Below are positions 24,219 through 43,980 of a stretch of DNA of 64,000 bases, piece after piece. The DNA lies in assembly GCA_948144175.1 (NCBI GenBank), contig CANXME010000105.1, positions 1,426,001 through 1,490,000 on the forward strand, written 5' to 3'. Positions within the stretch are counted from its first letter, which is position 1, and every line of letters begins with the position of its first letter. A program made the translations under genes and the position numbers. Origin of the DNA: Closterium sp. NIES-65. Its lineage: Eukaryota; Streptophyta; Zygnematophyceae; Desmidiales; Closteriaceae. Under the pieces are notes generated by a model. The model worked only from the letters and a program-made list of their open reading frames with translations. It made no database searches and was not told where the DNA came from.

Positions 24219-24686
24219 AAGAAGCGCCGCCCATTCGGCAATGTGGCGGCACCACCCGAAAGAGAGGGAGAGGGCAGGGATAGCACGGGAAATGAGGCCC
24301 TAGAGGAGGAAGAGTGGGCACAACGACAGGCTAAGGGAAGAGAAGATGATGATGACAAGCAGGCCTCATCAGATGATGATTACTGAACTCACCCTGACCC
24401 AGAGTCATGCTGGATGCAATGCATAGCTAGCTAGCAAGCAAGATAGGCTTTGGTTTACAATATTGAAGGCTGTTTGCGACCTTCATAGAGTTTTTAAGTT
24501 TAAAAAATCAGCTTCACTACTATCAGCCTTTTTCTACAGGTGACACTGATGCATCAGACTTTTTTTTTAAGTAACACTGAACTTTTAGGCTTTTTTCCTA
24601 GGCGACCCCGTTGATCAGGGTCTAGGGCCAGAGGGACCCTGATACCCTTACGTGCCTCAAAGTGAATCTGAGGGCCTGCTTCTCAG

Positions 24687-24707
24687 CCCAACATGGTATG
24701 AGAGCAG
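24687..24707 (+). other. End of Copia-A 5' LTR and primer binding site
   Basis: CCCAACA (24687-24693) completes the LTR after the hAT. TGGTATGAGAGCAG (24694-24707) is the minus-strand primer site, complementary to the 3' end of initiator-Met tRNA. Confidence 0.85.
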
Positions 24708-24760
24708 TTAGAGTTTAAGATCATTTTCTCTCTCAATACTTAAATACAAAGAAAGAAGAC

Positions 24761-26152
24761 ATGTCTGCAAGGAAGGAGAGGAGCTCCTCCAACGGCTCCC
24801 CAGGCACTACTCCTACTCCACCTCCTGCCTCTGGCCTACAGACAGAGGAAGGCACTACCGCAAGACCAGCAGCTGGGTCCACGGAAACACCAGCAGGCTT
24901 CGATTCAAACATGATGGAGAAATTTTTCTCCTTCATGTCCTTCTACGAGCAACACCAGCAAGGAGTGCCTGCGCAGTCAAACAACAGCAACAACAACAAC
25001 AACAATGTTACTCCGATGAGCCTCGACGGCTCATCCTATGCACGCGGGATGCAACAACAACAACAGCAACCTACCTTTGCGCCGTACGAGCCCCAACGTG
25101 GCTCCGTCAGCTTCATGCCGCAACCGCAACCTGCATCGGGACAAGAAAAGACATTGGACGCGTTACAGGTCCAGTCGCAATTCGCGCACGTTCTCAAGCT
25201 GCAAACGACCAAGCCTTTCGACGGGAAAGACTTCTTCACCTGGTCGTTCGAGTTCGAATTGATGATGGAAGGAGCACAGATTCTCGGCTTCTTCGACGGG
25301 TCCCTGCCATATCCGACAAACAGGACACAATATGAGAAGCAGCAGTATACATATCAATCGATGATGGCGTACACGATTCTGCTGAGGAACATCACCCCAA
25401 CCCAGCAGCAGAACATCAGGACTTACCGAGGCTACGGGAACTCCGCGGAGCTCGCGTACAACCACCTGAAGAACCTGTATCAAGCAACAGAAAGCGTAAA
25501 CCAAAGCAGGTTAATGGCGCAGTTGACAACGATTGAAATGAAACCAGGCGAGAAAGGCATGGCTTATATCAGCCGCTGCCGCGAACTGCGCGATAAGCTT
25601 CTTCGATGCGGCGGGTCAATTTCAGAAGACGCCTTTGACACGGTGGTCATCGGCGGTCTCGGCCCCCACTGGCGCTCCACTCGCGCCATATTACGAGCAC
25701 ACGGGAGGATCTCCGAAGCGGCACTCTGCGCCGAAATTCATGCTGAGCAGCAGGATATGGACCTGCAAGAAGAAAGGCACAAGAAGAAAACATTAGCACC
25801 AGAGTTTGCGTTTCACACTCAGCGACGAAACAACAATCGACAACAGCAACAAGTGAAGACGGTACCTCCGTTCTGCCACATCTGCAAAACCTCGGGCCAT
25901 CCTCGCACGCATTGCCCGTCTCGTCAGACGACACCACAGCGACAACTGCGGCCTTCAAGCTCCCAAGTTGCTTCAACGCAAGCAACTCCGACGACCGCAC
26001 ACCAAGCTTCAACGACTTCATCTGGACAACCTGCACAAGGAGCAAGAAATATTGTTAACTGCATGGTCAAGATAAACGACTCTTGCACAACAAAGTCACC
26101 ACCGTACTACTCACCCGAAGATCAACTTGACAACAGCACGCCTCGCCGCTAA
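24761..26152 (+). CDS. Copia-A Gag
   Basis: 463 residues. The N-terminus is low-complexity (Ser/Pro/Thr, then Asn and Gln runs). The middle matches the Copia Gag domain (LKLQTTKPFDGKDFFTWSFE, then a helical region with LTTIEMKPGE). The C-terminus has one zinc knuckle, CHICKTSGHPRTHC (CX2CX4HX4C). Gag would assemble the cytoplasmic particle that packages element RNA. It ends in TAA; the same frame continues directly into protease, so the stop is either a Gag terminator needing read-through or a mutation. Confidence 0.88.
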   Translation: MSARKERSSSNGSPGTTPTPPPASGLQTEEGTTARPAAGSTETPAGFDSNMMEKFFSFMSFYEQHQQGVPAQSNNSNNNNNNVTPMSLDGSSYARGMQQQQQQPTFAPYEPQRGSVSFMPQPQPASGQEKTLDALQVQSQFAHVLKLQTTKPFDGKDFFTWSFEFELMMEGAQILGFFDGSLPYPTNRTQYEKQQYTYQSMMAYTILLRNITPTQQQNIRTYRGYGNSAELAYNHLKNLYQATESVNQSRLMAQLTTIEMKPGEKGMAYISRCRELRDKLLRCGGSISEDAFDTVVIGGLGPHWRSTRAILRAHGRISEAALCAEIHAEQQDMDLQEERHKKKTLAPEFAFHTQRRNNNRQQQQVKTVPPFCHICKTSGHPRTHCPSRQTTPQRQLRPSSSQVASTQATPTTAHQASTTSSGQPAQGARNIVNCMVKINDSCTTKSPPYYSPEDQLDNSTPRR

Positions 26153-27331
26153 TCTCTTCAACCGAACCCAACGTACGCCGCCATCGCTCAAAGCGAACCG
26201 TCCGGCCAAGACACTTGGTTCTTGGATAGTTGCTGCGGACAACACATGTGCTCCTCCGGGCGCTTCGTACAACGCGAACATCGACTCCAGAGAGAAGTAG
26301 TCATCACGGTCGCCAACAATCAAAACCTGCGCACACGAAGACAAGGAGTGGTTCAGCTTCAGTCACAAGAAACAAACGTCATACTACACATGTCAAAGGT
26401 ACTTATCGCGGAGGGACTCGGCTACAACTTACTGAGTGTTAGCCAGTTGATGGCGAAAGGAATACACTTGGAAGCTGACAGCACCACCCAGGAGTTCAAG
26501 TTGTACCACGGGAAGGGCGGTCTTTACATCGGAAAGGCGGTGTTAAAAAACAATGTCTTCGTCCTCGACTTTGTCCCCGACTTGGGCACTGCCGACAGCG
26601 ACGCCATCGTCAACTTCACCGATTGGACGCATCCCCCAGATCTCGATCCCGACTTCAGCCCGGGAGGTTTCTGGTACTCACACACCATTCCTGAAGCAGA
26701 ACGAACACGTGCATTAGCAACAATTCGACAATCGGCAGCAGCAGAGACAACATCGGCAGCAGCAGAGACAACATCGGCAGCAGCAGAGACAACATCGGCA
26801 GCAGCAGAGACAACGTCGGCAGCAGCAGAGACAACATCGACAGCAGCAGAGATAACATCGACAGCAGCAGAGACAACATCGACAGCAGCAGAAACATCAT
26901 CGGCAGCAACAGGACCAACTACACCAGTCATCGTCGAAGAAGAACCTCCAACACCCGCACAGCAACTGAACCCGACTCAACGAGAAGTTCACAGAAGCGC
27001 CAATCTCGTCGCCAGCTTCTACTCCAACTCCGACGCATATCAACGTTCACCCGGACACCGCGCCTCCGAAGACATCTGGCACGCACGCACAGGACATCCA
27101 AGTAACACGTTGTTAAATAATACGATACGAGCAGGAGTGCTAGACAAAGACTCGCTACTACTACTCAACGGCAGAGAACTTCAACGTGCACGGGGGACTT
27201 GCCTCATCTGCCCGAGGCCAACTTACCACATCGACCTTTTTCTTCTCACCACAACCCGAGCGCACCTGCATACGCACCACTCGAAAAAGTCTACAGCGAC
27301 ATCCTCTACAATCGAGAACCAGGCCAAGTAA
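26153..27331 (+). pseudogene. Copia-A protease and integrase N-terminal domain
   Basis: In frame with Gag after its TAA. Protease motif WFLDSCCGQHMCSS at about 26217 keeps Asp-Ser, but the Gly and Ala of the usual DSGA are both Cys. A seven-residue repeat (TSAAAET, about nine times, 26740-26900) precedes the integrase zinc-binding segment (WHARTGHPS...CLIC). A frameshift at about 27200-27260 moves the integrase core to the next frame. Confidence 0.82.
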
Positions 27332-28239
27332 CCTATAATTACACGATTACCTTCATCGACGCTGCCACTCGATACGTCTGGCATCGCAACCTACCCAGCC
27401 GCGACATGGCACTCGCAGCATTCGCCGCTTGGCTACCGGTAGCAGAAAGGGAATCAGGAACGCAGCTGAAAAGCTTCCAGTCAGACGGAGGTGGCGAATA
27501 CACCTCTCAGCGCTTCAAGCAGTACCTGGCGGAAAGGGGGATCAAGCAACTCCTCTCCCTTCCCTACGCACATCAGCACCAGGGTGTTGCAGAAAGAATG
27601 AACAGGACCCTGTAGAACAGCATGCGCAAACTACTACGTGGCATGCGGCTACCCAACCACCAGTGGCCAGCAGCAATGGACCATGCTGTCATGCTGCACA
27701 ACTTGATTTCGTCGTCGTCACTCCCGAACAACGCATCACCGCATCTGCTGTGGACAGGAAAACAGGGCAGCACAAAAATGTTACGAGTATTTGGGTGCAT
27801 GGTACAGTACCAACCCCCAGAAGCACGAGCGGGAAGATTTTCGCAAAGAGCACAGTGGGGACTACACCTCGGCATCGAGAAAAATTACAACGCGTGGAGA
27901 ATCTTCGACGTCCACACAAAAGAAACAGTAGCAGCACGTGATGTGATCTTCTACAAACGACTCACCCTTCAGACGTACCTCGCCAACTTGCACGAGAATC
28001 GGGACCCCACAGGTGGCTTTCGTGGTGACCGAGCCTTCGCCTCAGCAGCGGACGAAGCAGACTGGGATGAACAGAACGTCGACAACGCATCGGAGGAAGC
28101 CGGACCTCTCCCGTACTGCTCCGTCGATGTGCCCATGGATGAGGATAATCCTCGCGACAGTAACAACGCCGAAGTCTTCTACCACTTCGCCGACAACGGT
28201 TACGTAACACCTGCGATAGTCAACACCAACGAAGCATAA
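27199..28239 (+). pseudogene. Copia-A integrase core, broken
   Basis: The integrase catalytic core is in frame 1: KVYSDILYN (first Asp), FQSDGGGEY (second Asp), HQGVAERMNRTL (Glu). A TAG at 27613-27615 follows NRTL, after which the domain continues in frame with NSMRKLLRG and the C-terminal region (LRVFGCMV...FSQRAQWGLHLG). Another stop, TAA, is at 28237-28239. The integrase would insert cDNA into the genome; these stops make that unlikely for this copy. Confidence 0.85.
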
Positions 28240-29995
28240 AGGATAGGGCCAAATTTCATCCCCAACCCAGAAGCGGGAGACGAAGCAGCTTATCCCGAGG
28301 ATCCAGAACTCCCTCGATACTCACAGACTGGGCTACAAATCCTTGGCCTCGTCACTGCAGTCCATGGGACCGCCGGCAACACTCTTCCTAAAGAGCCTGC
28401 GACAGTTCAGCAGGCTCTCGGGGGGGAACACAGGGAAAAATGGCGTGAAGCCATGGACAGGGAATTAAAGGCATTGGAGGAACGCAACACCTAGAAGGTC
28501 GTTCCCGCAAGCGTGGCAAGGAACAAGACCATTCTTACCGGGAAGTGGGTCTTCCGCATCAAAACAAAAGCTGACGGCACAATCGAGAAGTTCAAAGCAC
28601 GCTGGGTCGTGCGTGGATTCGACCAGGAACAAGGACGAGACTTAACCGAGACCTTCGCCCCAGTTAGTCGACATACCTCTCTCCGCATTCTTCTCGCCGT
28701 CGCCGCCATGAAGAAGAAGAAGCTGCGACAGATTGATGTCGCCAATGCCTTCCTCTACGCACCTGTCGACGCCGACATCTTCGTCGAGCTCCCTCACGGT
28801 ACACACGGGGAACCCAATCAAGTCTGCCAACTGCTAAAGTCCCTCTACGGAATCAAGCAGGCCCCACGGCTGTGGCAACAGCACCTGCACACCCGCCTCA
28901 TCCGCATCGGATTCCGCCAACTGCCTCATGACCAGGGCATGTACCGACTCACTAAAGGTGCCAACTACATCCTACTCATCGTCTACGTCGACGATCTCCT
29001 CTACATCGGCTCCACCGACGACGTCACCACCTGGTTCGAAGGGGAGCTGCAGAAAGATCTCACGCTCACAGTTTCTTCTACCGTCACGCAGTACCTTGGA
29101 CTCAACATCCGCGAAGAAGAAAACGCAATCTATCTAAGCGCCGAGAAATACGCCGACACGATCGCCAAGCGCTTCTCGCTCACCCCTACCGCTATCGCCA
29201 CGCCATACCGCTACACGGCAGGAAACGGCCAAGGAAACTCCACCCTACTAAAAACCGCCGGAATACGCGACTACCAGCGAAAACTGGGCTGTCTGCTCTT
29301 CGCAGCCGTCACCTGTCGCCCGGATCTATCCTACTCCGCGAGTCAACTCGCTACCTACCTCAAGAAGCCTGAAGCAGATCACATGTCAGAGCTTGATCGC
29401 GCACTGCACTACTTCGTGAGCACACCGACAATCGGCCTAACTTACTACAAGGGCGAAGCTACGACGACGAAACTAATCGGCTACGTCGATGCTGACCATG
29501 CCGGCGATTCTGATAACAGGCGTTCTCGTACCGGCTACGTCTATCGTCTCGAGCCTATCGGGTCTATCTCCTGGCAGTCGAGTAAGCAGGAACTAATCGC
29601 TCTCTCTTCAGCTGAAGCAGAATATATCGCCCTCTGCTCAGCCACCAAGGAAGGACTCTACCTTCGCGAACTGCTGGAAGAAGCAAAGTTAGCTGAGTTA
29701 CCCAGCTTCACCCTGCACTGCGACAACCAATCTGCAATTCGCATCGCCAAAAAAAAACGGATTCGCGAACAGAACGAAGCATATCGCTCTGCGATACTTC
29801 TTCGTGAAAGACGAGATCGAGAAAGGAAGACTCGAGTTATCTTACTGTCCCACGTCCGAGATGGCAGCCGACTATTTGACCAAGAAGCTCGGAAAACAGA
29901 AGTTCGAGTACTGCATGCTGCTGACTGGACAAGGCCACGTCACCATCAGCGACACTCTAGAAGCGAAGGGGAGTGTTGGGAACAATAAGTCTTAA
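28240..29995 (+). pseudogene. Copia-A reverse transcriptase and RNase H
   Basis: Copia RT begins at WREAMDRELKALEERNT, followed by TAG (about 28492-28494) where relatives have Trp. It then runs on with KWVFRIKTKADG, IDVANAFLYAP (first Asp), LYGIKQAPRLW and YVDDLLYIGS (Asp pair). RNase H has YVDADHAGD, SSAEAEYIAL and CDNQSAIRIAK. An A run (9 A at about 29749-29757) then shifts the frame; the C-terminus (NRTKHIALRYFFVKD...DYLTKKLG) is in another frame to 29995. Confidence 0.88.
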
Positions 29996-30409
29996 GGCGC
30001 CTCTGTCGTGTCGAAGCTCAGGACTCAAAGCGAAGCAGTCCAAATCGAAGCATCGCGAGTCAACCCTCGGAGGTTGGGGTAACCGCCTGGAGGTTACGCG
30101 AAGGTCAAAGGTCAGCGACCTTTGACTTGACCAATACAGTGCGACAGCAAGGACACACAACTGACTCGACATTGAGCAGTTGCCCGAGTCGCACTATATC
30201 GAATCGCAACAGTAAAACGGTTTAAATCTATCTATTCGTATTCCTTGTACTCTTATATAAACCTTGTATTTGCTTGTTTAATACAACTTACTTTGCTCTC
30301 ACATACTAGTGCAAGGTGGTTCAACCACTCTGTATTACAACGCTTCTGCTATTACAATCCTACTCAGTCCTTAAACTCTACAAAGATCCTAGGGCTTCTC
30401 AGCCCTACA
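29974..30409 (+). repeat. Copia-A 3' LTR
   Basis: 436 bp beginning TGTTGGGAACAATAAG after the purine tract and ending CAGCCCTACA, followed by the target duplication AAATC. The RNase H frame overlaps its first bases. TATA box at 30254-30261. Confidence 0.95.
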
Positions 30410-30599
30410 AAATCAACTGCTCGGACAGAGGCAACTGTGTCAAACATTATATATTGTTGTACTTGTTTAGGCTACAGTGGGTTAGCCTATAGGGGGTACA
30501 CACTTCTAGGTTTCCATATTTGTACTCATTTCATTCGTAGTCATTTCATTCCTTGTTCAACATGGTATAGAGCAGGTCCTTCCTAGGACCGTTTTTCCT

Positions 30600-31330
30600 A
30601 AGGGCCCACCACTACCTACCTGCCTATCTGCCTACCTGCCCTAGGGCGCCTCGACGTTCATGCCTCTAGAGGCCCTGTAGGCCCCGCGCTGTTGCACCTA
30701 GAGGCCCCGAATCGGCCCCGCGCCTAACCCTAACGGCCCGCGTCGGCCCCGAGCTCGTCCCCTAGAGGCCCGCATCGGCCCCGCGCCTACCCTAGAGGCC
30801 CGCGTCGGCCCCGAGCCTACCCCTAGAGGCCCGCGTCGGCCCCGTCCTTACCCCTAGAGGCCCGCGACGGCCCTGTCCCTACCCCTAGAGGCCCGCAACG
30901 GCCCCGATCCTACCCCTAGAGGCCCGCGTCGGCCCCCGATCCTACCCCTAGAGGCCCGCGTCGGCCCCCCGTCCCTACTCCTAGAGGCCCGCGTCGGCCC
31001 CGTCCCTACCCCTTACAGCCCGCGTCGGCCCCGTCCCCAACCCCACCCGCTCCCCGCGCTCCCCTTAGCCGCCTCGAACGGCCCCACCTAGACCGCGCCG
31101 CCCGCACCGAACAGCCCGGCCCTAACGGAACCGAGCCGCCCGAACCGAGCCGCCCGACCCGAGCCGCGCCGCCCGACCCGAGCCGCCCGAACCGAGCCGC
31201 GCCGCCCGACCCGAGCCGCGCCGCCCTACCTATACCGAGCCGCGCCGCCCTACCTGTACCGAGCCGCGCCGCCCTACCTATACCGAGCCGCGCCGCCCTA
31301 CCTGTACCGAGCCGCGCCGCCCTACCTACC
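30600..31330 (+). repeat. GC-rich tandem leader of Copia-B
   Basis: Between PBS and Gag, about 730 bp of tandem units: first CCCTAGAGGCCCGCGTCGGC (about 25 bp, a dozen copies), then CGAGCCGCGCCGCCC(GACC or TACCT) units. No open frame is conserved. The non-autonomous element at 22009 has an analogous GC-rich leader, suggesting a structured or packaging leader. Confidence 0.8.
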
Positions 31331-31364
31331 TACTGCTCCTGCTGCTTTTACTCCTGCTACTACC

Positions 31365-34300
31365 ATGGCTAGCCCTCCAGTGCTAGGCTTTGATGCTGAG
31401 GGGCGCCCAGTGAAGTTCGACACCTGGCTTGATGACCTACACCTCTTCCTACAGCTCACTGCCAAGGAAGACATCTCGCTGTACGATCACGCCCTAGGCC
31501 ACGCTGCTGCTCCTGCTGCTACTGCCGACAGCACTGCTCGCTCATAGTGGCAGACTCGTAACGCCCATGCTCGCTTCGCTATCCGCAACTCTCTGCCGAT
31601 AGATGAGCGCGAGCACTTTGGGCAGCACAAGACTGCACAAGCACTGTACACTGCTGTCGTTGCCCGCTACTCCTCACCGGCCTCTGCTGCTCTAGGCCGT
31701 CTCTCTCTTCCCTACCTGTTCCCCGACTTAGCTTCCTTTCACAATGTCGCTGACCTCATTACCCACCTCCGCACTAGTGAGGCTCGCTTCCGCGCCGCTA
31801 TGCCTGATGAGTTCCTAGCCACGAACCCACCCCCGCTCTGGATCACTCTCTACCACCTAGTCACGCGCCTCCCTGACTCGCTGCGCTCAGTCAGGGACCA
31901 CTTCCTCGCTCGCTGCCCCACCGAGCTCACCATTGCCCTCCTCGAGAAAGAAATCCTTGCAGCCGAGACTAGCAAAGTCGCTGTAGGTGCCTCTCGCGGT
32001 GACCCCCGCACCCCGTTCTTTGAGGGGTGTTCTCCCTCCCCCCTTCTTCCCTCTGTCGCCTCTGCTGCTGCTGTCGACCTCCTTGGTGCTGAGAAGGTCG
32101 GGACTGCGTCTGCTTCGGGCGGACGCCGCAGCGGCAAGGGCAAGGGGGGCAAGAGCGGTGGTGGTGACAGCGGGGGTGGCGGTGGTGGGGGGGGTGGTGG
32201 CGGGGGGGGTGGCGCGGGTGGGGGAGGTGGCAGCGGTGGTGGGGGTGGCGGCAGCGGCGGGGGAGGTGGCCGGGGCGGAGGAGGTAGTGGGGGTGGCGGT
32301 GGACGAGGCAGCGGCAGGGGCTGGGGTGGTCGAGGAGGTGGTGGCGGGAGTGGTGGGCGTGGCGGCACTGGCGGTGGCCAGGGACAGCAGCACACTCCCT
32401 CGCCCCAGGAGGTCCGTGAGTGGTACTCTCAGCACGGGGGGGGGGGTGGCCTTAGCTGCACGTACGTCATTCGCACTGGTGACCGCACTGGCCAGCCGTG
32501 TGGGGGACCGCACGCCACACAGCGTTGCTTCGCTCGTCTGAGCGACGCTTGGCGTGTTCAGTTCCCTCAGGCCAGTGAGCTGCCCCGCTGGCTTGATCTC
32601 CTGAAGAAGGGGATTGATATCTATGCTCTAGATTTTCATGCTATTCTCACTGCCATGTATGTGATGTCTACTAGTGGAGAGGGTTCTGAGTACCTGAGTG
32701 TCCCGCCCGACCCGGGCATTAGGACGAGTGCGTCTGCTACTCCAGGTACCCACGTGTCTGCTACCCCAGGTGCTGGTGAGGCTGCTGCTCTAGGTGCGTG
32801 CGTGTCTGCCCCCCCTGGTACTGTGTCGACTGCAGCACTGCACACCTTCACGCTGGATTCGGGTGCCTCTCGCTGTTTCTTTCGTGACCGCACTGCCCTT
32901 GAGCCCCTTGCTCGGCCAGTTGCTGTCTCCCTTGCTGACCCCTCTGGGGGTCCGGTCATTGCGACCTCCTCCACTGTCCTTCCCTGCCCTGCGGTCCCGT
33001 CGGGCACACTGTCAGGTCTCCACCTCCCCTCGTTCTCCACGAACTTGGTGGCAGGTTCTGCTCTCCAGGACGGGGGTGTTCACCAGTTCACCCCTGCCTA
33101 CGAGCGTGTGACAGACTGCACGTGTGCTCGTACGGGCCGCCACTTGGCTACCTTCACCCGGCAGCCGGGGTCGGACCTGTACACACTGACTACTACCTCC
33201 CCTCAGGTCGCTGCGTCTGCGTCTGCGTTTGCGTCCGCGTCAGGTCACCTGTCTGCCCCCTGCTCGTGTCGCTCTCTAGCGCACGAGACTGTCCTCTGGC
33301 ACCACCGACTTGGCCACCCGTCTGTGCAGCGCCTTCGTGCCATGCACTCCCGGTACCTTGTCTCTAGTCTTCCCAGGGTTCTCCCTCCTCTCCCACCCTC
33401 GCCTGCTCCTCCCTGCCTTCCCTGTGTTGAGGGGCGGCAGCGCGCCACTCCTCACTCCTCCTCGTTTCCCCCGACGACTGCTCCTTTGCAGACGCTCCAC
33501 ATGGACGTGTGGGGCCCAGCCCGCGTCCGTGGTCAGGGTCAGGAGAGGTACTTCCTGATCGTTGTTGACGACTACTCGCGCTACACCACGGTCTTCCCCT
33601 TGCGCACCAAGGGTGAGGTCCCTGATGTTTTGATCCCTTGGATCCGCAGAGCTCGTCTCCAGCTCAGCGAGCGTTTTCGCTCGGACTTTCCTGTCCTGCG
33701 CTTGCACTCTGACAGAGGTGGTGAGTTCTCCTCCGACCTCTTGGCAGCCTACTGTGCTGAGCACGGCATTGAGCAGTCGTTCACGCTTCCGGCCTCTCCA
33801 CAGCAGAATGGGGTTGCGGAGCGCCGCATTGGCCTGGTCATGGAGGTCGCTCGTACCTCCTTGATCCATGCGGCTGCCCCCCATTTTCTGTGGCCGTTTG
33901 CGGTCCGGTACGCTGCGCATCAGCTCAACCTCTGGCCCCGTGTCTCCTTGCCGGAGACCTCGCCCACACTGCTGTGGACGGGGGAGGTAGGCGATGCGTC
34001 GCGTTTCCGGGTCTGGGGATCTCGAGCTTTTGTTCGCGATTCGTCTGCGGACAAGCTCTCCTCTCGTGCTGTTCTCTGCGTCTTCCTTGGCTTTGTTCCG
34101 GACGCACCTGGTTGGCAGTTTTACCACGCCACCTCGCGCCGGGTCTTGCCCTCTCAGGACGTCACTTCTGACGAGTCTGTCCCCTACTACCGCCTCTTCC
34201 CCTACCGCACTTTCCCGCTCCCTCCCCCGCCTCTCTTCCTCGCGCCAGGTGCTGCTGTCGTAGACCCCCTCCCCCCTCAGGGTGCCGCTCCCTCAGGTGT

Positions 34301-37300
34301 GTCTCAGGTAGACCCGGTCGAGCCTGTTGAGGTTGCTGTCGACTCTCGTCCTGCTGGGGGTGCTGAGCCTGGGGGTGCGGACACTGGGGATGCTGAGCCT
34401 GGGGGTGCGGACTCTGGGGGTGCTGAGCCTGGGGGTGCGGACTCTGGGGGTGCTGAGCCTGGGGGTGCTGACTCTGGGGGTGCTGAGCCTGGGGGTGCGG
34501 ACACTGGGGGTGTTGAGCCTGGGGGTGCTGTGCCTGGGGGTGCTGAGCCTGGGGGTACGGTGACTGGGGGTGCTGAGCCTGGCGGTACTGCGCCAGGGAG
34601 TCCTCCGCCTGGCCGAGACCTCTCCTCGGAGCAGTTGCGTGAGTGGTACTTCCAGTACTGCAGCCTCCGGAGGGGTACCTCTAGGACCAGGCGCGCTACG
34701 GAGACTGGTGCTGGCACTTCTCCTTCTAGTCGTGAGCTCCCCTCTCGTGAGCGGATCCGTGAGCGGTACGAGCGCCGTTGCACACTTCGTAGTGGCGCGC
34801 CTCGTCTCACGGACCCTGCTGCTGCTGGTGCTGCGGACCCGGGCGTTGGAGCTGCTGCTGGTAATGAGGACCCGGGCGTTGGAGCTGCTGGTGGTGCTGC
34901 GGACCCGGGCGTTGGAGCTGCTGCTGGTGCTGAGGACCCGGGCGTTGGAGCTGCTGCTGGTACTGCGGACCCGGGCGTTGGAGCTGCTGCTGGTGCAGCG
35001 GACCCGCGCGTTGGAGCTGCTGCTGGTGTTGAGGACCCGGGCGTTGGAGCTACTGCTGGTGCAAAGGACCCGGGCGTTGGAGCTGCTGCTGGTGCTGAGG
35101 ACCCGGGCGTTGGAGCTGTGACTGGTGCTGAGGACCCTGGTGTTGGAGTCCCTGCTGGTGCTGCGGACTCGGGCGTTGGTACTGCCGCTGGGGGCACTGG
35201 TGCTGTCCCTGCTGTGTCTGGAGTCGCCGCGCGCCCTCAGCCGTACTTCGTTCCGCTCCTTCAGCAGGTTCTTGGTCTCTCGCCTCCTCCTGGTCCTCCC
35301 CCTCCTTTAGTGTGTCCACTGCCTGTTCAGTCACTGCCTGCTCCTTCTCCTTACTCTGGTCCTACTGACGGTCTTACTGAGCGTCGTGAGCCTGCGTCTC
35401 GCCCTGCGTCGCCTGTCCGTCCTGCTAGCACTGGAGCTCGTACTTCGCGTCCACGTCCTCCTCCTGCCCCTGGCACGCAGCGGATGTCTCTGCGTCCGTC
35501 CACTGCCCCTCTGCGTGCCCCTTTGCCTTCTCCTCCTGCTTCCTCTCTTCCTGCTCTTGCCGACCCGGAGTCGGACTCTCTTCGTGCTACCAGTCCTACT
35601 GTCACGCGTCTCCTTGCTACTGCCGTCACTGACCCTTCTTTCGAGTCTTCTGCTGCGTCTGCCCTAGTTGCTGAGCTCGTCGACTTTGCTGCTCGCTGTC
35701 GTCTAGACTACGCTGCTAGTCTTGTCGCTGAGTCTGAGTCTGTGTGTCCTCCGTTTGTCGGGGGTGCGTGTGCCCTTGGCACGGACGTCCTTGAGGACAG
35801 GCAGGAGGAGTTTCAGTGCTTGGCTGCCGCTTCACCTCATCTCGCGTCTGTACTACTAGCTCCTGAGGGAGACCCGGATGCACTAGACATCCCGACTCCG
35901 CGCTCTTACGCGGAGGCGATAGAGGGTCCCTACTCCTCTCAGTGGCAGGCAGCTATGGATGCAGAGATGGCTTCCTGGAAGTCCACAGGCACCTACGTTG
36001 ACGCTGTCCCCCCTCCTGGGGCGAACATCGTCAGTGGCATGTGGATCTTCATGGTGAAGCGGCCGCTGGGTTCTCCGCCTGTCTTCAAGGCGCGTTACGT
36101 GGCTCGTGGCTTCAGTCAGCGGCAGGGAGTTGACTACTTTCAGACCTTCTCCCCCACCCCGAAGATGACCACTCTTCGGGTACTCCTGCACGTTGCTGCT
36201 CACCGGGACTACGAGCTTCACTCTCTCAACTTCAGCACTGCGTTCTTGCAGGGCAGCCTGCACGAGGAGATCTGGCTGCGTCGCCCACCTGGCTTCTCTG
36301 GGTCTTTCCCTCCTGGTACCCAGTGGAGTCTCCGGCGTCCAGTCTACGGTCTCCGCCAGGCGCCACGTGAGTGGCACGACACACTGAGGACCACGCTGGC
36401 GGCACTTGGGTTTGCTCCTTCTACTGGCGACCCGTCGCTGTTTCTGCGCACCGACACTTCTCTGCCGCCGTTCTACATCCTCGTGTACGTCGACGACTTG
36501 GTCTTTGCCACTGCTGACACTGCTGGACTCGCCTACGTGAAGTCCGAGCTGCAGAAGAGACACACGTGCACTGACCTGGGTGAACTGCGCAGCTACCTTG
36601 GCTTGCAGATCACCCGGGACAGAGCACGCCGCACCATTACCCTGACTCAGTCACACATGGTGCAGCAGGTCCTTCAGCGCTTTGGCTTCACGTACTCCTC
36701 GCCTCAGGCCACTCCTCTGCCTACTCGCCACTCGCTCTCAGCTCTGCCTTCGGATGAGTCCGTAGAGTCGAGTGGCCCGTACCCAGAGCTTGTTGGCTGT
36801 TTCATGTACCTGATGACCTGCACACGACCTGACCTTGCATACCCTCTTAGCATTCTTGCGCGCTATGTTGCTCCTGGGAGACACCGACCAGAGCACATGG
36901 CTGCAGCGAAGAGGGTGTTGCGTTACTTGTGCAGTACGTCGGGCATGGGACCAGTGCTTGGAGGGCGGAGTCCAGTGGTCCTCACTGGTCCCGCGGACAC
37001 TTCTTGGGCTGACGACCAGGCTACGCAGCGGTCGTCACAGGGTTACACCTTCAGCCTTGGTTCCGGCTCTGTTTCGTGGCGGGCTACTCGCTCGTCTTCT
37101 GTTCTCAGCTCCAGTTGTGAGGCTGAGATCTACGCAGGGGCCATGGCTGCTCAGGAGCTTCGCTGGCTCACCTACCTGCTGACCGACCTTGGAGAGCCGC
37201 CTCGTTCTCCTCCAGTCCTGTACGTCGACAACAAGGCCATGCTGGCCTTGTGTCGAGAGCAGAGACTGGAGCACAGAACAAAGCACATTGCTCTCCGCTA

Positions 37301-37469
37301 CTTCCTTGCTCGTGAGCTACAGCAGCGTGGTCAGTTGCGACTTGCGTACGTGGCCTCTGAGGCCAACACTGCTGATGTCTTCACCAAGGCACTTGCGCCT
37401 TGTGATCATCTGCGCTGCTGTACCCAACTGGGTCTTGTGTCTGTCCTGCCTCACTTGCTCTCCTCTTGA
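31365..37469 (+). CDS. Copia-B Gag-Pol polyprotein with one internal TAG
   Basis: One frame of about 2,030 codons interrupted only by TAG at 31545-31547. Gag-like N-terminus (FDTWLDDLHLFLQ), a Gly-rich tract of about 80 residues (32150-32390), protease FTLDSGASRCFF, and integrase zinc segment (WHHRLGHPS...CLPC). The integrase core has LHMDVWGP, HSDRGGEF and NGVAERR. Long linkers follow of GGAEPGGADSG (about nine units) and ADPGVGAAAG (about eleven). RT has KARYVARGFSQ and YVDDLVFA; RNase H has WADDQATQRSS, SSCEAEIYA and YVDNKAML. The first RT catalytic Asp position reads LNFSTAFLQG, that is Asn. Otherwise well preserved. Confidence 0.92.
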
Positions 37470-37684
37470 CCCTCTTTGTACTGTTACATATATATATCAC
37501 TGCTCTTGCTTGTTTAGTCTTATATATATATGTACTCCTGCATATGAACTGGCCTTGTGGCCTTGAACTTGTGCTCGGATTGTGTGGTGACATTGTGATC
37601 CACCCTGAGCTTGCTTTGCTTTGCTTTGCTTTGCTTGACTGGTCTTGTGACCCCTAGTTCTCCCCCACTTCGCCTATGGGGGTG

Positions 37685-37809
37685 TGTCAAACATTATATA
37701 TTGTTGTAGTTGTTTAGGCTACAGTGGGTTAGCCTATAGGGGGTACACACTTCTAGGTTTCCATATTTGTACTCATTTCATTCGTAGTCATTTCATTCCT
37801 TGTTCAACA
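37685..37809 (+). repeat. Copia-B 3' LTR
   Basis: 125 bp from TGTCAAACATT to TTCAACA, matching 30438-30562 except one C/G difference. Confidence 0.95.
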
Positions 37810-37814
37810 AATTG

Positions 37815-37985
37815 ACATGTTAGTATGCTGGTCCTTGCCAGTTCAGTTTACATGCTGGTTCAGTTTACTTGAGCTAAAGGCAAACTTTCTTGAAGAGGCA
37901 TGAGGTCGTGTCACACATTGAGTTAGTGGCATTGCAAAGAGATATCATTTCTAAATGGCCGTGTGTGTCAGTTAGGTGTGGGCAG
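37815..37985. other. Host or older sequence between Copia-B and hAT-2
   Basis: 171 bp with no recognised feature. With 30415-30437 it is the only non-element DNA between the P450 flank and hAT-2. It ends in GTGGGCAG, the candidate hAT-2 target site. Confidence 0.5.
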
Positions 37986-39540
37986 CAGGGCCCGTGCTAG
38001 GTTTTGGGGCACCCTGAGCCCTCAGGGCACTTTTCTAGAATCCAAAAAAATGCTCTGATTTCTCAGGGCAAATCTTCTGAGCCTTCCTGACTGGTCAGGG
38101 CTTTTGCAGAAAATAATCCTGACGTGTCAGGGCAAAATTAGTAGCGTTCAGGGTTCTGATTTTAGCACAAACAGACCAGGGCAGGGTAGACTCTGTTCTG
38201 TTTAGCATAGCAGAGCAGCCGCAGCGCTGCAGCGCACATATAGTTGGTGTTTTACTAGGCAATCAACTCCTGCACCACCTCTCCTAGCCCTCCTCCTCCT
38301 CATCATCATCTTCGCTGCTGCTACTAAACCCATTGTCGCTGCTGCTGCCACTGCCATGTTCAGTATCTGCTTCTTGTCCGTCCTCCCCCCCGTTCCCCTT
38401 CCCCGCCTTCCTCTGCTGCTCCCTTCTCTTAGTAGGCCGCCTCCTCTTCTTGCTGCTGCGCCACAAATCCACCACTTTACCCCATTCCATGTCATACTCA
38501 GTTAGGCTCAGGCACATCAAGTCACTGAGCCTGGCATCACAGAGGCTGGTCCTCTGCCAGGACTTAATCACGTTCTGGCGGCTAAAGCCGCGCTCACACT
38601 CGACGGTGCTGAGCGGCAGGACAGCCACCGCCGTCCAGAGGCGGACGAGGTCGGGGTAGCTCCGCTCCCAGTCCTTTGTTCTCAGCATGGCCGCCAGTCC
38701 GCGTTGAAATGTGCGCTCGCCTTTGGGAGCGCCAGCCAGAACAGAGACAAATGTCCTCAGTTCCTTCTTGGCAGCTCGCTTGTCCACTCCTGCCATGCCA
38801 AGCATAACACAACACACATAACAGTGACAGAGCAGGGGCAGAACAAGTCAGAGAGGTGGAAATGTACATAGCAGGGAGAGAACTTGGCAGATTGTGGGAG
38901 ACTGTGGGGTAGGAGAACAGTAGTGCAGATCAGGCAGGAGCAGTACAACAGGTAGGAGCAGAACACAAATGCTTACCTGGGAGAATGTCTGATCGTTCGC
39001 GGGCATGGAACAGGGCGACGAGGGTCTCCAAGTGCTCGCGGCACTCCTCAGCGCGTGCCTCCTTGTCTTCGGGGTACGTGTCTGGCATAAACAGCCGGAC
39101 ACCGTTCAGGCTGTCGAGATCCCCCAGCCTCTTTTGGAGGTGGGTGATGTCAGAGTTCTTGAAGGAAGTCCTAAAAGAACGCTGACAAAAGAAAAGGGGA
39201 GGGCTGTAATTGAGGCAAGGAGGAACAAAGTGTACATTTGTATATAGTCGAGAAAGCGGATAACGGGGAGTAGAAGCGGTAGGCGGGAAGTGGAGGGCAG
39301 CTCGGCATTGGCAGGCAGTGGGTAAAGGTTGGGACGAACCTGTGGCTGGCCGGGGGAAGGGATGGCGAGCTTACGTGGCGGGAGGGGGTGAATGGGGTTT
39401 GCTGGGATGCATGTGTTTGTTTCTTGCTTGTGTGCAGACACCGAGTCCAGGGGGGAGCTGGAAGTCACACCCGCCAGCTGGAGGAAGGCAGGATAACTGC
39501 AAGGGTGGCGAAGCTCGGCTGCTAGCACTCATCTGTTGGT
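37986..39540 (-). mobile_element. hAT-2 transposon, 3' part, minus strand
   Basis: The terminal sequence CAGGGCCCGTGCTAGG at 37986 is the 3' end of a hAT on the minus strand, with repeated CAGGGC subterminal motifs (38020-38160) as in hAT ends. The transposase C-terminal exons follow. I could not find the other terminus or a matching target duplication, so the 5' half is missing, probably cut by the Gypsy element. The right boundary near 39540 is approximate. Confidence 0.75.
38284..39181 (-). pseudogene. hAT-2 transposase, C-terminal exons only
   Basis: Two minus-strand exons, 39181-38977 (RLGDLDSLNGVRLFMPD) and 38789-38284 (GVDKRAAKKELRTF...LSTVECERGFSRQN, then a Lys/Arg and acidic tail ending DDDEEEEG), with AG/GT sites. 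They match hAT-1 exons 4b and 5. The catalytic N-terminal part is absent, so no active enzyme is encoded. The intact tail here shows that hAT-1 stops early. Confidence 0.85.
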
Positions 39541-39727
39541 AGCCATGCTTAGCTAGGCTAGGGTGGGTGCAATATTAGAGGTTCCTGGGCCATGGGACTG
39601 CTACTGCGTGATTGTTTTCGCAATTTACTGTGATTTCTTCTCAAGATAGGCAGTCTCTTAGCGAAGCCATATCCGCAGTCTGATGGATTAGGGGAGGGGC
39701 ACGTAGTACAATCACGCAGTCGTCCGA
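39541..39727 (+). other. Gypsy leader or LTR remnant
   Basis: Non-coding sequence between hAT-2 and the Gypsy Met. It contains a 13-bp inverted repeat, ACTGCGTGATTGT at 39603-39615 and its complement at 39708-39720, enclosing 92 bp and ending 7 bp before the start codon. No LTR boundary or primer site could be fixed, because the 3' LTR lies beyond the window. Confidence 0.5.
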
Positions 39728-42700
39728 ATGCGATTGCGGTCAGGAAGGTGGATAGAAGTAGTCAGAACAACGCAAGGACAGGACGAGAGGATGATGGGAA
39801 GAGACGGGAATCAGCGGGAGAATGATCTGCCGCCAGGAGGCGGAGATGTAGAAGGCCAGACTGGGCCCAGTGAGGGAGCAACCGGCCCCAGGGGAGGTGC
39901 TCAGACCGGAAGCGCCGGCGGCGGAGGCAACGCGCCGACTGGATCGGAGGGAGCGCAGGGGCCGCAGGCGCGACCACGGTCGCAAATGGGTGGACCGGTG
40001 GGATATCAGCGCAGCGCCTCGTGGCAAGGCACGGAGGACGAGACGATGATACAGCGCTGGAAATACACTCAGCTGTCGAAGATAGAAGTGCCGGAAAGAT
40101 TCTCCGGCGATGCTCGACGAGGTTCGAGCCTGAAGAACTACATCATGCAGTTGGAAAATCTGCAAGTGCGATGGGCGAAGGATCAGCTGGACCCAGAGGA
40201 GTTCTTCCGAGGGCTGGCAAATACGCTGACCGGGGAGGCAGAGACCTATTACCGCATATCTCGCAAGGAGCTGCTGGAGTGGGCGGCGGGGCAGGCCCCG
40301 GGAGAAAGGGATCCTACGGCGAGGTTCCTAGCAATGTTACGAGAGCAATTTCCCGCGCAAACGGCAGAGCGAGTGGTCGAATTCCGGTCGTTCAGAAGGC
40401 GAGAGGGAGAATCGCTGCTGGCATACTACGGGAGGCTGGTGGAATTGGGGGAGGACATGAACTGTGGAGACCAGGGACGACTGATCGGGAAGTTCGTCCA
40501 TGGCCTGAGTCAACCACTGCGGCAGGATGTGGAAGTGCGGGTGTTCGAGCTGGGCGCGGAAGCGACGCTGAAAGAGGCGTACGAAATTGTTAAACGAGTG
40601 GAGACGGGACGCAGGCTCTACGAGGTCGAGAGAACGGCGGATCGGGGATCCAAGAGGAGACGGCCGGCATGGGCAGCCGCGTCCGCGTATCAGGAGGTGG
40701 AGGAAAGGGGAAGGGAAGAGACCCGACGTTGCCATAACTGTGGACAACCGGGACATATGCGCAGGGATTGCCGGAACCCAGCGGCATGTTCGCTCTGCGG
40801 GAGTCGCGAGCATTTGCGCCGGGACTGTCCGGGGGCCCCAGTGTGCGCACGCTGTGGAAGAAAGGGGCATCGGGAAGCAGATTGCTACGCAAACCGCAGG
40901 GACAGGCGAGGAGCTGAGGGAGGTGAAGATCGGCAGGCCATCATGGCGCGGCTGCGGGCGCAATTAGCAGAACTAGAAGCAGTGGAGGAGAAGCACCCGG
41001 CGATGGTGGCACAGGAAGAGGAAGACTCGGAAGAGCCAGAGTTCATGCTAATGGCACAACCCGCACGGGAGCGAGAGGAGCTAGGCCTGAGGAACGGCGC
41101 GCGCAGACAGCTCTTCAGGGAGGACGAAAGGCGGGAAGATGGCCCGAGGAGGAGGGCAAGCACAACCGAGGACAGAGAAGGAGCGGCATTTCGGCATCCG
41201 CGCGATCGCATGATCTGTCAGGCCACGGTACTGACGATCGAACCAGGGGCAATCACGATTGGGGGGCTACGAGCCCAGAGAGCCATAGTGGACACGGGAG
41301 CCGCACATGTGTTAATCGGCAAGCAATTGGCGGAGAAGCTCCAGCTGGACAAGGATGAGCGACTGATACCGGAGGGCTACTTGCTCATGACGGCGGATGG
41401 AGGAGAGGCGAAGTGGATGCCGAAAACTCGGCAGTCCATGGCCTTGGTGCTGAATCCGGGCACACCAGAGGAGTGCACGCTGAGGGTGCACTGCGGAGTG
41501 TCGGACTCTTTGGAGTTCGATCTGCTCATAGGGGTGGAGTACCTCTTTGGCATCGGCTCGACAATCTGCATGTGGGAGGAGAAGATGCAGTATCGCGTGC
41601 ACTATTGGAAGGATGATGGCCCCATTGGCACGTTACCAGTGCGCTTCGTAAGGAGAGAGCCGAGGGAAGCCTACCAGTGTACCGAAGCAGAACTGCGGGA
41701 AGAGCTAGGAGTACCCTCCTGGCAGCAAACCGTGAGGATGCAAACGCCAGCGGAGGGGACAGACGGGGACGACGGAGACCTAATGCGGATATGCACGGAC
41801 ACCAAGAAGCTACTGGGCCCCACGGTAGTATTGGAGCTCTTTGGCGGCATTGGCACGGGCTTAGCGGCAGTCCTGAAGGCTGGGGCCTACGTGGAGAAGT
41901 GGATACTGGTGGAATCAGACATGGAGTCGGTGAAGATGGCATGGAATCACGCGAAGCAGCTGCAAAGGAGATACCCGCACCAGCTGACGGCCTTGGCGTT
42001 GGAACAAAGCACGTACACTCAGGCCTGCGACATACGGATGGTGACGGAGCATACCATAAGGGGATGGGGGAAGATTGATGTGGTCGTTGCGGGCTGGGAG
42101 TGTCAGGGATATTCGCGGGCAGGGGCAGGCAGAGGCATGAGGGACGAAAGGAGCAGCCTTTTCAGGGAGTTAGTGCGAGTGCTGCGAATCCTCAAACGAG
42201 TGCAGGGGGAAGTGCTCTACATTGTGGAGAACGTGGACATGGAGGGGGATGTGCGGGAACAGATCCAAGTGGCACATGAGGAAGTGACGGGGGTGCTGGG
42301 CCCGGGGATTGTAGTGGATGGGGCGCAGACGGGCAGCCGAGCACACAGGGTGCGCCGCTACTGGACGAATGGAGTAACAAACGCAGCCCTGCAGTACCGC
42401 TTGTCACTGATGGAACGCCCCGTGCCCTTGTTGGTGGAAGACATCCTTGAAGTGGGGAGGATGCCCGCACCGGTAACACAGCCAGATCATCCGACGCAGT
42501 TCGCATGTAACGAGATAGGGAAGCCGCGGCGGGCTTGGCCCACGTTTGTGTCATACGAGGGCGCAGTGGCCTTTAAGATGCACGGGGAAGACCCGGGGCC
42601 AGGAATGGTGTACGACTGTACAGCGGGAGAATGGCAAGAACCGACAGCGCTAGAGCGGGAATTGGCCATGGGTTTCATGGAAGATGCGACCGCACATCCA

Positions 42701-43468
42701 GAGGTGACGGAAACAGCGAGGAGGCGTGCACTGGGGAGAGCCATGGACTTGAACGTCATGCACTGGCTGGTGGCGACGATCCGGATGTATCACTCACAGC
42801 TTCGGTGGGAGCGCAAACGAGACAAGGCGGCAGCAGTGCAGCCACCCACGGAGCGCTCGGTTGCTAAAGAGGCCCTCGCTAGGGCCATGCTGGGAGAGAT
42901 GCACGAGAATGATGTGGTCCAGCACCAGTTGGGGCATCCGCTGGAGAAGAGGTGGGTGTATCCGTGGGAAGCGGAGGACGAAGTACCAGCGGTGTATGCA
43001 GAACCAACCCAGAGCGAGCTGCCAGCCGCACGGGAAGAGGCAGCCGTGAACAAGAAGCGAGAGGACTTGGACTGGGTGGAGGAGGCCATCGAGAGGCAGC
43101 GGAGAAGGGAGAGCTATGAGCGTGAGTTCGGATCAGGAGAATTCGCCCTGATGGCGGCAACGAAGGAGGTAGGAGCAGAGACGAAGACACAGGGAGAGCG
43201 ATCGCAAGAGAAGGCACAGGGCCAACCAACGGAGCCAGCGAAGGCTGAAGGGTCAGCGCGGGGGATGAGGGAGAAGGAGCCAGCGGCACCAGCAGCAGCA
43301 GAGCATCAGTGGGAGATCGGAGATGGCGTCACCGAAGAGGACGCGGCAGAACTAAGGAGGGTGCTTGCGAAACATCGGGAGGCGTTCGCTTACACACTGA
43401 AGGAGGTGGGCAGGTGCAACATGGCGGAAGTCAGCATCGAGTTAACCACTGAGATTCCAGTGTACTAG
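39728..43468 (+). CDS. Gypsy Gag-protease-cytosine methyltransferase polyprotein, copy 1
   Basis: 1,246 residues. Gly/Gln-rich start; Gypsy Gag (WKYTQLSKIEVPERFSG; FRSFRRREGESLLAYYGRLV) about 100-300; three CCHC knuckles from residue 335 (CHNCGQPGHMRRDC, CSLCGSREHLRRDC, CARCGRKGHREADC); aspartic protease IVDTGAAHVLIG (Asp 522). A C5-DNA methyltransferase domain spans about 695-1020: motif I LELFGGIGTGLAAVLKAG, motif IV VVAGWECQGYSRAG (Cys 792), motif VI YIVENVD (Glu 834), motif VIII QTGSRAHRVRRYW (867-879), IX/X ERELAMGFMED and LGRAMDLNVMHWL. Spacing and the DIRMVTEHTIRGWG segment resemble DNMT3. A charged linker then leads to the start of RT (AKHREAFAYTLKEVG) before TAG. It would modify DNA at C5 of cytosine if active; the target is unknown. 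Confidence 0.9.
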   Translation: MRLRSGRWIEVVRTTQGQDERMMGRDGNQRENDLPPGGGDVEGQTGPSEGATGPRGGAQTGSAGGGGNAPTGSEGAQGPQARPRSQMGGPVGYQRSASWQGTEDETMIQRWKYTQLSKIEVPERFSGDARRGSSLKNYIMQLENLQVRWAKDQLDPEEFFRGLANTLTGEAETYYRISRKELLEWAAGQAPGERDPTARFLAMLREQFPAQTAERVVEFRSFRRREGESLLAYYGRLVELGEDMNCGDQGRLIGKFVHGLSQPLRQDVEVRVFELGAEATLKEAYEIVKRVETGRRLYEVERTADRGSKRRRPAWAAASAYQEVEERGREETRRCHNCGQPGHMRRDCRNPAACSLCGSREHLRRDCPGAPVCARCGRKGHREADCYANRRDRRGAEGGEDRQAIMARLRAQLAELEAVEEKHPAMVAQEEEDSEEPEFMLMAQPAREREELGLRNGARRQLFREDERREDGPRRRASTTEDREGAAFRHPRDRMICQATVLTIEPGAITIGGLRAQRAIVDTGAAHVLIGKQLAEKLQLDKDERLIPEGYLLMTADGGEAKWMPKTRQSMALVLNPGTPEECTLRVHCGVSDSLEFDLLIGVEYLFGIGSTICMWEEKMQYRVHYWKDDGPIGTLPVRFVRREPREAYQCTEAELREELGVPSWQQTVRMQTPAEGTDGDDGDLMRICTDTKKLLGPTVVLELFGGIGTGLAAVLKAGAYVEKWILVESDMESVKMAWNHAKQLQRRYPHQLTALALEQSTYTQACDIRMVTEHTIRGWGKIDVVVAGWECQGYSRAGAGRGMRDERSSLFRELVRVLRILKRVQGEVLYIVENVDMEGDVREQIQVAHEEVTGVLGPGIVVDGAQTGSRAHRVRRYWTNGVTNAALQYRLSLMERPVPLLVEDILEVGRMPAPVTQPDHPTQFACNEIGKPRRAWPTFVSYEGAVAFKMHGEDPGPGMVYDCTAGEWQEPTALERELAMGFMEDATAHPEVTETARRRALGRAMDLNVMHWLVATIRMYHSQLRWERKRDKAAAVQPPTERSVAKEALARAMLGEMHENDVVQHQLGHPLEKRWVYPWEAEDEVPAVYAEPTQSELPAAREEAAVNKKREDLDWVEEAIERQRRRESYEREFGSGEFALMAATKEVGAETKTQGERSQEKAQGQPTEPAKAEGSARGMREKEPAAPAAAEHQWEIGDGVTEEDAAELRRVLAKHREAFAYTLKEVGRCNMAEVSIELTTEIPVY

Positions 43469-43567
43469 CGGCGGCGGAGGATGACAACAGAAGAACTACA
43501 GATCTGCACAGAGAAGTGCCAAGAGCTGATGGAAGCCGGGTTCATACGGAAATCCAACTCTGAATAC
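43469..43567 (+). pseudogene. Gypsy RT start, truncated at the duplication joint
   Basis: In frame after the TAG: RRRRMTTEELQICTEKC, then the first RT residues up to KSNSEY, where the sequence jumps to hAT-1 3' sequence at 43568. Copy 1 therefore has no RT or RNase H. Confidence 0.88.
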
Positions 43568-43980
43568 GGGAGAGGGCAGGGATAGCACGGGAAATGAGGC
43601 CCTAGAGGAGGAAGAGTGGGCACAACGACAGGCTAAGGGAAGAGAAGATGATGATGACAAGCAGGCCTCATCAGATGATGATTACTGAACTCACCCTGAC
43701 CCAGAGTCATGCTGGATGCAATGCATAGCTAGCTAGCAAGCAAGATAGGCTTTGGTTTACAATATTGAAGGCTGTTTGCGACCTTCATAGAGTTTTTAAG
43801 TTTAAAAAATCAGCTTCACTACTATCAGCCTTTTTCTACAGGTGACACTGATGCATCAGACTTTTTTTTTAAGTAACACTGAACTTTTAGGCTTTTTTCC
43901 TAGGCGACCCCGTTGATCAGGGTCTAGGGCCAGAGGGACCCTGATACCCTTACGTGCCTCAAAGTGAATCTGAGGGCCTG
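43568..43980 (+). mobile_element. hAT-1 3' fragment, duplicated
   Basis: The last 413 bp of hAT-1, including the acidic tail sequence and the right terminus GAGGGCCTG, are present here without the rest of the transposon because the duplication starts inside it. Confidence 0.93.

Follow-up and report, generated by a model that had tools for sequence, protein, structure and literature searches.

The window analyzed here, a stretch of 64,000 nucleotides from the streptophyte alga Closterium sp. NIES-65 (GenBank assembly GCA_948144175.1, contig CANXME010000105.1, positions 1,426,001 to 1,490,000 of the forward strand), contains two copies of a retrotransposon that encodes a cytosine-5 (C5) DNA methyltransferase between its protease and its reverse transcriptase (RT). 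Our analyses suggest, with a probability that we put at roughly 0.6, that these copies represent an autonomous Ty3/Gypsy-type Closterium family in which a captured DNMT3-like domain has become a fixed part of Pol, kept by selection, and that the enzyme would methylate the element's own DNA de novo. This kind of element is already known: a Gypsy element with Dnmt3 and split repeats in the same order, KnitGypsy-Dnmt3 of Klebsormidium nitens, was published by de Mendoza et al. in 2018 (PMC5890265), as an earlier, sequence-only reading of the window had suspected when it doubted the novelty of the arrangement. What goes beyond the 2018 work is the host, the scale and spread of the family, the shared history of RT and methyltransferase, the W-E-C-Q active site, and the integrase-type insertion ends.

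Results

A DNMT3-like catalytic domain in a Gypsy polyprotein

The sequence-only reading had described one uninterrupted frame of 1,246 codons with Gag, three zinc knuckles, a protease and a C5 methyltransferase, and had assigned it to a Ty3/Gypsy-type element bearing a DNMT3-like enzyme between protease and RT. Both descriptions are borne out: the frame is open throughout, and its protein matches the Pfam families zf-CCHC (7.4e-11), DNA_methylase PF00145 (3e-8) and Asp_protease_2 (1.1e-5), all above their cut-offs. The features of this first copy are as follows (L numbers denote genomic stretches, L009 holding the part of the second copy that lies beyond the window).

39144..39147, plus strand: 5' target-site duplication GTGA; the same four bases lie 3' of the second copy (L009:7666-7669)
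39148..39700, plus strand: terminal repeat A1 (about 553 bp), starting with TGTC upstream of the ATG and marking the start of the copy; 88-94% identity to the A repeats of L014, L022, L023 and L025
39728..43468, plus strand: 1,246-codon open frame that encodes Gag, CCHC knuckles, protease and methyltransferase and ends in TAG; from the open reading frame list, translation and Pfam
40730..40885, plus strand: three CCHC zinc knuckles, visible in the translation and matched by zf-CCHC
41252..41404, plus strand: aspartic protease core with IVDTGA; Pfam PF13650, and PF13975 below its cut-off
41816..42781, plus strand: DNMT3-like C5 methyltransferase catalytic domain; Pfam, PDB sequence search and predicted fold
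42098..42106, plus strand: motif IV E-C-Q (W-E-C-Q replacing the usual P-C-Q/N); translation and alignments
43466..43468, plus strand: in-frame TAG, a defect of the first copy, judged by longer frames in other genomic copies

Comparison with methyltransferase profiles, which the earlier reading had proposed as a check, returned C5 families, including an NCBIfam dcm superfamily match (7.1e-9) that lies under its curated cut-off. Searched against the PDB, the domain found DNMT3A at 1.9e-10 as a single sequence and at 4.8e-17 as a 15-row profile, and the same profile matched the other solved C5 enzymes less well (4onj_A, 'DNA methyltransferase', 8.5e-11; DRM2, 5.4e-8; HhaI, 5.7e-8); we take 4onj_A to be tobacco DRM. 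The AlphaFold model of the domain has a mean confidence (predicted local distance difference test) of 91.6, and its top structural matches are DNMT3A and DNMT3B. Together, these matches and the predicted fold indicate a complete DNMT3-like catalytic domain, nearest to DNMT3 among solved C5 enzymes. The domain resembles mammalian DNMT3A and DNMT3B in fold and in the order of catalytic motifs, but differs from them in its low identity (20-26% in the structural lists), in the absence of ADD or PWWP matches in Pfam scans of the window protein and five Pol frames, and in having W-E-C-Q for P-C-N.

We use the label "DNMT3-like" because motif IV reads W-E-C-Q and not P-C-(N/Q). This sequence is present in all 15 aligned Closterium rows, which also agree without exception in the catalytic Cys, the Glu of motif VI and the arginines of motif VIII, and it recurs in 13 long frames and in L037; in one subfamily (L019, L021) motif VI is E-H-L in place of E-N-V. 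Liverwort relatives have W-P-C-Q wherever the motif was read, while other relatives carry P or E, rarely S or D, before the Cys, and a few deviate at the Gln (for example P0062, P0071, P0074, P0083, P0085 and P0100; P numbers denote proteins). On a 65-row methyltransferase tree, exchanges between P and E before the catalytic Cys require at least six changes. Fungal Masc1/RID was considered as a precedent for E in motif IV and rejected, given that, as described in PMC6709928, PCQ is kept there and it is motif VI that differs (EQT or EET). In the portions of the literature consulted, nothing relevant to changes of the motif IV proline was found.

A large family under purifying selection

Within the 874,075,685 bases (2,400 contigs) of the genome, the PF00145 profile located the domain at at least 123 places (123 scored of 901 candidates), and the window domain, L019 and L016 as protein queries located at least 113 (113 of 1,425), 121 (121 of 1,492) and 117 (117 of 1,457), respectively. 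The union of the three protein queries is at least 301 places, and adding 121 of the 123 places from Pfam raises it to at least 365; these are places rather than independent insertions, with segmental duplicates included and 64 coming from the Pfam search alone, not each checked. Of eight short-frame PF00145 places considered as possible host DNMT genes, seven match the element's domain and are decayed copies, whereas L031 does not match it. Many copies lie in open frames of 1,400-2,500 codons. Frames of 2,463, 2,159 or 2,084 codons are each found at several positions, their domains scoring almost the same; the subfamilies include young copies.

The domain is not a one-off: the survey of further copies that the earlier reading had called for found a methyltransferase place within 3 kb at 49 of 50 RT places with at least 84% identity to L019 (97 scored of 13,852 candidates), the exception being C1925:132083. 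Five Pol frames were scanned with Pfam, one of them the RT-integrase part of the window element. The Ty3/Gypsy order protease-RT-RNase H-integrase is present, with a Gypsy-type RT, and the full order CCHC-protease-methyltransferase-RT-RNase H-integrase was read in L015 and L021; L010 gave no CCHC match and L027 neither a CCHC nor a protease match. The five frames gave no PHD match at E up to 0.01. They also gave no Pfam match to a tyrosine recombinase where the integrase core (rve) matched, no search having been aimed at recombinases.

Selection was assessed from the ratio of nonsynonymous to synonymous substitution rates (dN/dS). Among 210 pairs from 21 rows, 20 had dS of 0.02-1.5 in both domains (five of these 20 being the window element under two names), and in them dN/dS was 0.08-0.36 for the methyltransferase and 0.07-0.34 for RT; at dS above 0.1 the ranges were 0.08-0.13 and 0.07-0.12. 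The methyltransferase domain is thus under purifying selection as strict as that on RT.

Split repeats and insertion ends

The terminal repeats are split. The arrangement A1-coding-B1-A2-B2 is complete in 11 of the 20 stretches L009-L028, and each of these 11 elements starts with TGTC, ends with GACA and is flanked by a 4-bp direct repeat (6 bp in L022). L019 and L021 have common flanks and are therefore taken as one duplicated insertion, so that the 11 copies stand for 10 events. A1 and A2 are 97.3-99.8% identical in these elements, the B1|A2 junction is GACAGCTGTC in 10 of them, and a purine tract resembling GGGAGGGGGCA was recognized by eye 5' of B1 in all except L020. A shorter form, A-coding-B, with TG...CA ends and a 4-bp repeat, was read in three copies: the second copy of the window with L009 (GTGA), L015 (TACC) and L016 (AGAG). 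Chance has to be reckoned with in L015 and L016, where the ends were chosen from 70 and 25 pairs; the A and B of L015 match those of L025 at 98.6% and 98.8%, and L016 was read from its ends alone. End pairs also arose among the 24 and 16 tried in L027 and L028, had no repeat support and are uncounted.

Other copies are incomplete. L011 has A1 and A2 99.7% alike, with no B2 or target-site duplication found; in L012 the junction is present and a 222-bp repeat flanks A2 on both sides, with no A1 found; L026 has only an 84-bp repeat; and no A pair was found in the examined stretch of L018, L027 or L028. L037 (G000:C2299:132400-142300) is very young: its A repeats are identical (100%), its frame is open for 2,084 codons and it adjoins a 67-bp tandem array, with neither B2 nor a target-site duplication found. 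Split repeats take the place of a complete long terminal repeat (LTR) at both ends; the element is therefore named Gypsy-type by its Pol and is not a standard LTR element. By eye, no primer-binding site was recognized 3' of A1.

The insertion ends suggest an integrase acting at the B|A junction. The purine tract before B1 could prime plus-strand synthesis, giving a cDNA with B-GC-A at both ends, and circles of that cDNA, opened by integrase at GACA-GC-TGTC, would yield both repeat forms. The A-coding-B form could also arise by recombination between B1 and B2 after insertion, and the ends might instead be completed in a DIRS-like manner, with the internal B-A region serving for this.

Relatives and probable history of the capture

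Three protein searches and one profile run found the domain in Closterium NIES-53, NIES-54, NIES-65 and NIES-68, Marchantia, Calypogeia, Sphagnum, Haematococcus, Monoraphidium, Tetrabaena (weakly, 61 bits) and many unnamed proteins, a range that spans liverworts, moss, chlorophytes and metagenomes. The domain of P0005, a NIES-65 protein, is encoded by L019 at 100% identity over 355 residues. Two domain orders occur: in order A the domain precedes RT, and in order B it lies between RNase H and integrase, often with PF00628, which we take to be the PHD finger, a chromatin reader. Among Gypsy Pol proteins from metagenomes, P0057, P0070, P0135 and others have both a DNMT3-like domain and PF00628. 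P0036 combines a DNMT3-like domain with a precomputed match to PF05869 (presumably Dam adenine methylase); it has no Gypsy RT profile match and looks by eye like a DIRS-type RT protein.

In a 106-row RT tree, drawn from the best 120 of 1,307 RT relatives and hence liable to miss domain-less members, a single clade (98 in the Shimodaira-Hasegawa-like approximate likelihood ratio test, SH-aLRT) holds all 28 order A and 44 order B rows together with 13 rows without a seen domain. Ten of these 13 have frames that start within 185 residues of RT, so that an upstream frame may carry the domain. Animal Gypsy rows, K. nitens P0155 and others fall outside the clade. The trees include no host DNMT3 of green plants. 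In the 65-row methyltransferase tree, which omits order-breaking rows such as P0031 and P0100, orders A and B each form one side of a branch (99/98, bootstrap not quite settled); a quick 83-row tree that keeps the long branches needs three changes of domain order. Pairwise RT and methyltransferase distances are correlated: r is 0.73 across all 71 proteins, 0.94 for the 25 of order A and 0.40 for the 46 of order B, while leaving out Closterium (58 proteins) gives 0.62 and the 10 proteins of this genome give 0.92, with none of 2,000 shuffles as high in each set. These trees and distances appear to be fitted best by one ancient capture and one relocation in a green-plant Gypsy lineage, the domain being passed on together with RT.

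Among the matches listed, the sole one from K. nitens was P0155, which lacks the domain, and no viral relative was found in IMG/VR with the Closterium domain alignment A2 or P0053 as query. Among the titles and abstract openings listed, none reports the domain in Gypsy elements of Closterium, liverworts, moss or chlorophytes, and the words "methyltransferase," "LTR" and "Gypsy" are absent from the main text of the Closterium genomes paper (PMC10407611). Where retrotransposon DNMT3 is cited in PMC12344493, it is as reported earlier, in 2018.

A CG and CHG footprint

Differences of the C/T type between A1 and A2 fall at 15 of 526 CG, 14 of 731 CHG and 9 of 2,189 CHH positions, counted over 11 pairs (L021 omitted as a duplicate, L011 added) with change assumed to be from C. 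Relative to CHH, the odds ratio is 7.1 for CG (p 4e-6) and 4.7 for CHG (p 3e-4); overall, the pairs differ by 38 transitions and 21 transversions. Such a footprint is expected if inserted copies acquire methylation at CG and CHG sites, and does not distinguish between host and element as the source of the methylating enzyme. As an impression only, stops in decayed copies appear to be mostly TAG and TGA and rarely TAA, the pattern expected from decay of CAG and CGA at CHG and CG sites.

The copies in the window

The window copies are two dead copies of one insertion. They arose with a tandem duplication whose 19,303-bp unit reaches from the interior of a Copia-like element into the Gypsy element, stopping immediately 5' of RT, so that the first Gypsy copy is cut at 43568. 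The TAG that ends the 1,246-codon frame is regarded as a defect of the window copies because many genomic copies have longer frames without it. The earlier reading had the second copy continuing past one TAG into RT and RNase H; RT does follow from 62772 and RNase H lies beyond the window, but the copy has two in-frame TAGs, one at 60645-60647, where the first copy reads CAG, and one at 62769-62771. As a whole it is an A-coding-B element of about 7.2 kb, from 58451 to L009:7665, with GTGA at both flanks.

24266..43568, no strand: tandem duplication unit 1, 19,303 bp, whose right end truncates the first element copy; 99.96% identity
43568..62871, no strand: tandem duplication unit 2; seven differences between the units
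58447..58450, plus strand: 5' target-site duplication GTGA, second copy
58451..59003, plus strand: repeat A1, second copy
59031..60647, plus strand: Gag, zinc knuckles and start of the protease, second copy, ending in TAG; open reading frame list and Pfam
60684..62771, plus strand: the same frame further on, with the methyltransferase (61119-62084), ending in TAG
62772..64000, plus strand: Gypsy RT, second copy, which continues outside the window (L009, up to 7669) with RNase H, integrase, repeat B and the 3' GTGA

The duplication (24266-62871) thus fuses the interior of a Copia-like element to the interior of a Gypsy element. The window also holds two Copia-like elements: one at 18658-30403, with 430-bp end repeats 98.8% alike and about 11.3 kb apart, and one at 30436-37809, where 127-bp repeats spaced at 7,247 bp enclose a 1,889-codon open frame. 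An uninterrupted cytochrome P450 frame of 614 codons lies at 16608-18452 (Pfam 3.6e-95).

Discussion

In the reading that we favor, the methyltransferase travels with RT and integrase and would methylate the element's DNA de novo, at the stage of cDNA, circle or new insertion; fresh copies would then resemble host DNA or sit in a tolerated state and not be damaged or rejected. Methylation of the element's own DNA around integration would then be the enzyme's likely role. Several observations weigh against this. The CG and CHG footprint, which was read in copies of this family, may be attributable to host enzymes alone. The ratio of observed to expected CpG is 0.70-0.81 in 11 elements and 0.73 in the neighboring Copia of the window, so close that self-methylation leaves no special depletion. 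Motif IV departs from the usual sequence throughout the Closterium alignment. Finally, when the enzyme of KnitGypsy-Dnmt3 was tried in yeast, no methylation could be detected, which the authors of that study call inconclusive (PMC5890265).

Two other accounts of the domain's function have to be weighed. It is unlikely that the useful target is host chromatin or RNA, such as particle RNA or host tRNA, with a benefit through altered insertion sites or RNA methylation. PF00628, presumably a PHD finger, does occur in many metagenome relatives and in Haematococcus proteins, but not among the Pfam matches of the five Closterium proteins scanned. Among C5 enzymes, those of the Dnmt2 branch have tRNA as their substrate (PMC6709928, PMC5890265), and RNA methylation was raised for LINE-borne enzymes in 2018 (PMC5890265); the nearest solved relatives of the Closterium domain are, however, the DNA enzymes DNMT3A and DNMT3B, far ahead of DNMT2. 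We consider it quite improbable that W-E-C-Q reflects lost or changed catalysis, with the domain kept as a DNA- or S-adenosylmethionine-binding structural part of Pol. The fixed Glu in Closterium, its recurrence elsewhere, the E-H-L subfamily and the relatives that vary at the Gln would all be in keeping with such a loss, yet none of the 15 Closterium rows departs from the Cys, the Glu of motif VI or the Arg of motif VIII, and the alternation of P and E among relatives that otherwise keep their motifs suggests tuning more than decay.

As to origin, several independent captures, including two for the two domain orders, would accord with the 2018 conclusion of independent captures in K. nitens and dinoflagellates (PMC5890265), with the three order changes on the 83-row tree and with the weaker distance correlation within order B. 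We regard this as doubtful, since all 72 domain rows fall in one RT clade and each order forms one side of one branch in the 65-row tree, its bootstrap not quite settled. Equally tentative is a broader scenario, in which a single ancient capture across green algae and bryophytes is combined with an integrase that opens circles at the palindromic B|A sequence GACA-GC-TGTC, the methyltransferase, retuned from Pro to Glu, marking that intermediate. Circles with two repeats would then give A-coding-B-A-B and circles with one repeat A-coding-B, both with TGTC...GACA ends and 4-bp duplications. That the combination is a one-off fusion or an assembly artefact has next to no probability: the first copy is indeed cut at a tandem-duplication junction, but the hundreds of places and the recurrence of the same long frames refute the idea, and related proteins are annotated in Closterium NIES-53, NIES-54 and NIES-68 and in liverworts.

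Among known systems, the closest parallel is KnitGypsy-Dnmt3, which likewise has a Gypsy-type Pol (RT, RNase H and integrase) with a Dnmt3-related domain in a streptophyte alga host, A-coding-B-A-B repeats and purifying selection on the domain. The A-coding-B-A-B arrangement is the DIRS order as written in PMC5890265, where a figure legend gives the K. nitens repeats that structure. The likeness is one of published description, the motif IV, domain order and sequence of KnitGypsy-Dnmt3 lying outside the comparison. The Closterium family differs in its hundreds of copies, K. nitens having fewer by the wording of that paper, and in its TGTC/GACA ends and 4-bp duplications; the main text of the paper mentions target-site duplications only for long interspersed nuclear elements (LINEs). 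SymbioDIRS-Dnmt3 of Symbiodinium, as described in PMC5890265, shares a DNMT3 domain in Pol, the A-coding-B-A-B repeats and the existence of two domain orders, but has a tyrosine recombinase where the Closterium elements have a retroviral-type integrase core and target-site duplications. SymbioLINE-Dnmt and the DIRS elements with adenine methylases are also retrotransposons that bear a DNA methyltransferase; they belong to other retrotransposon classes, and the adenine methylase is structurally unrelated (PMC5890265).

A capture that was both single and old would call for a revision of the 2018 view that the K. nitens lineage acquired its enzyme independently. The combination of split repeats with integrase-type duplications raises the question of the route by which such elements enter the genome. 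Moreover, the family comprises hundreds of copies, recent insertions among them, and with an assembled host genome and published kin, studies of methylomes and expression can test what methylation does for the element. Transposons are widely countered by cytosine methylation; an element that carries its own methyltransferase, under selection like that on its RT, is therefore a natural experiment on the value of methylation to a parasite.

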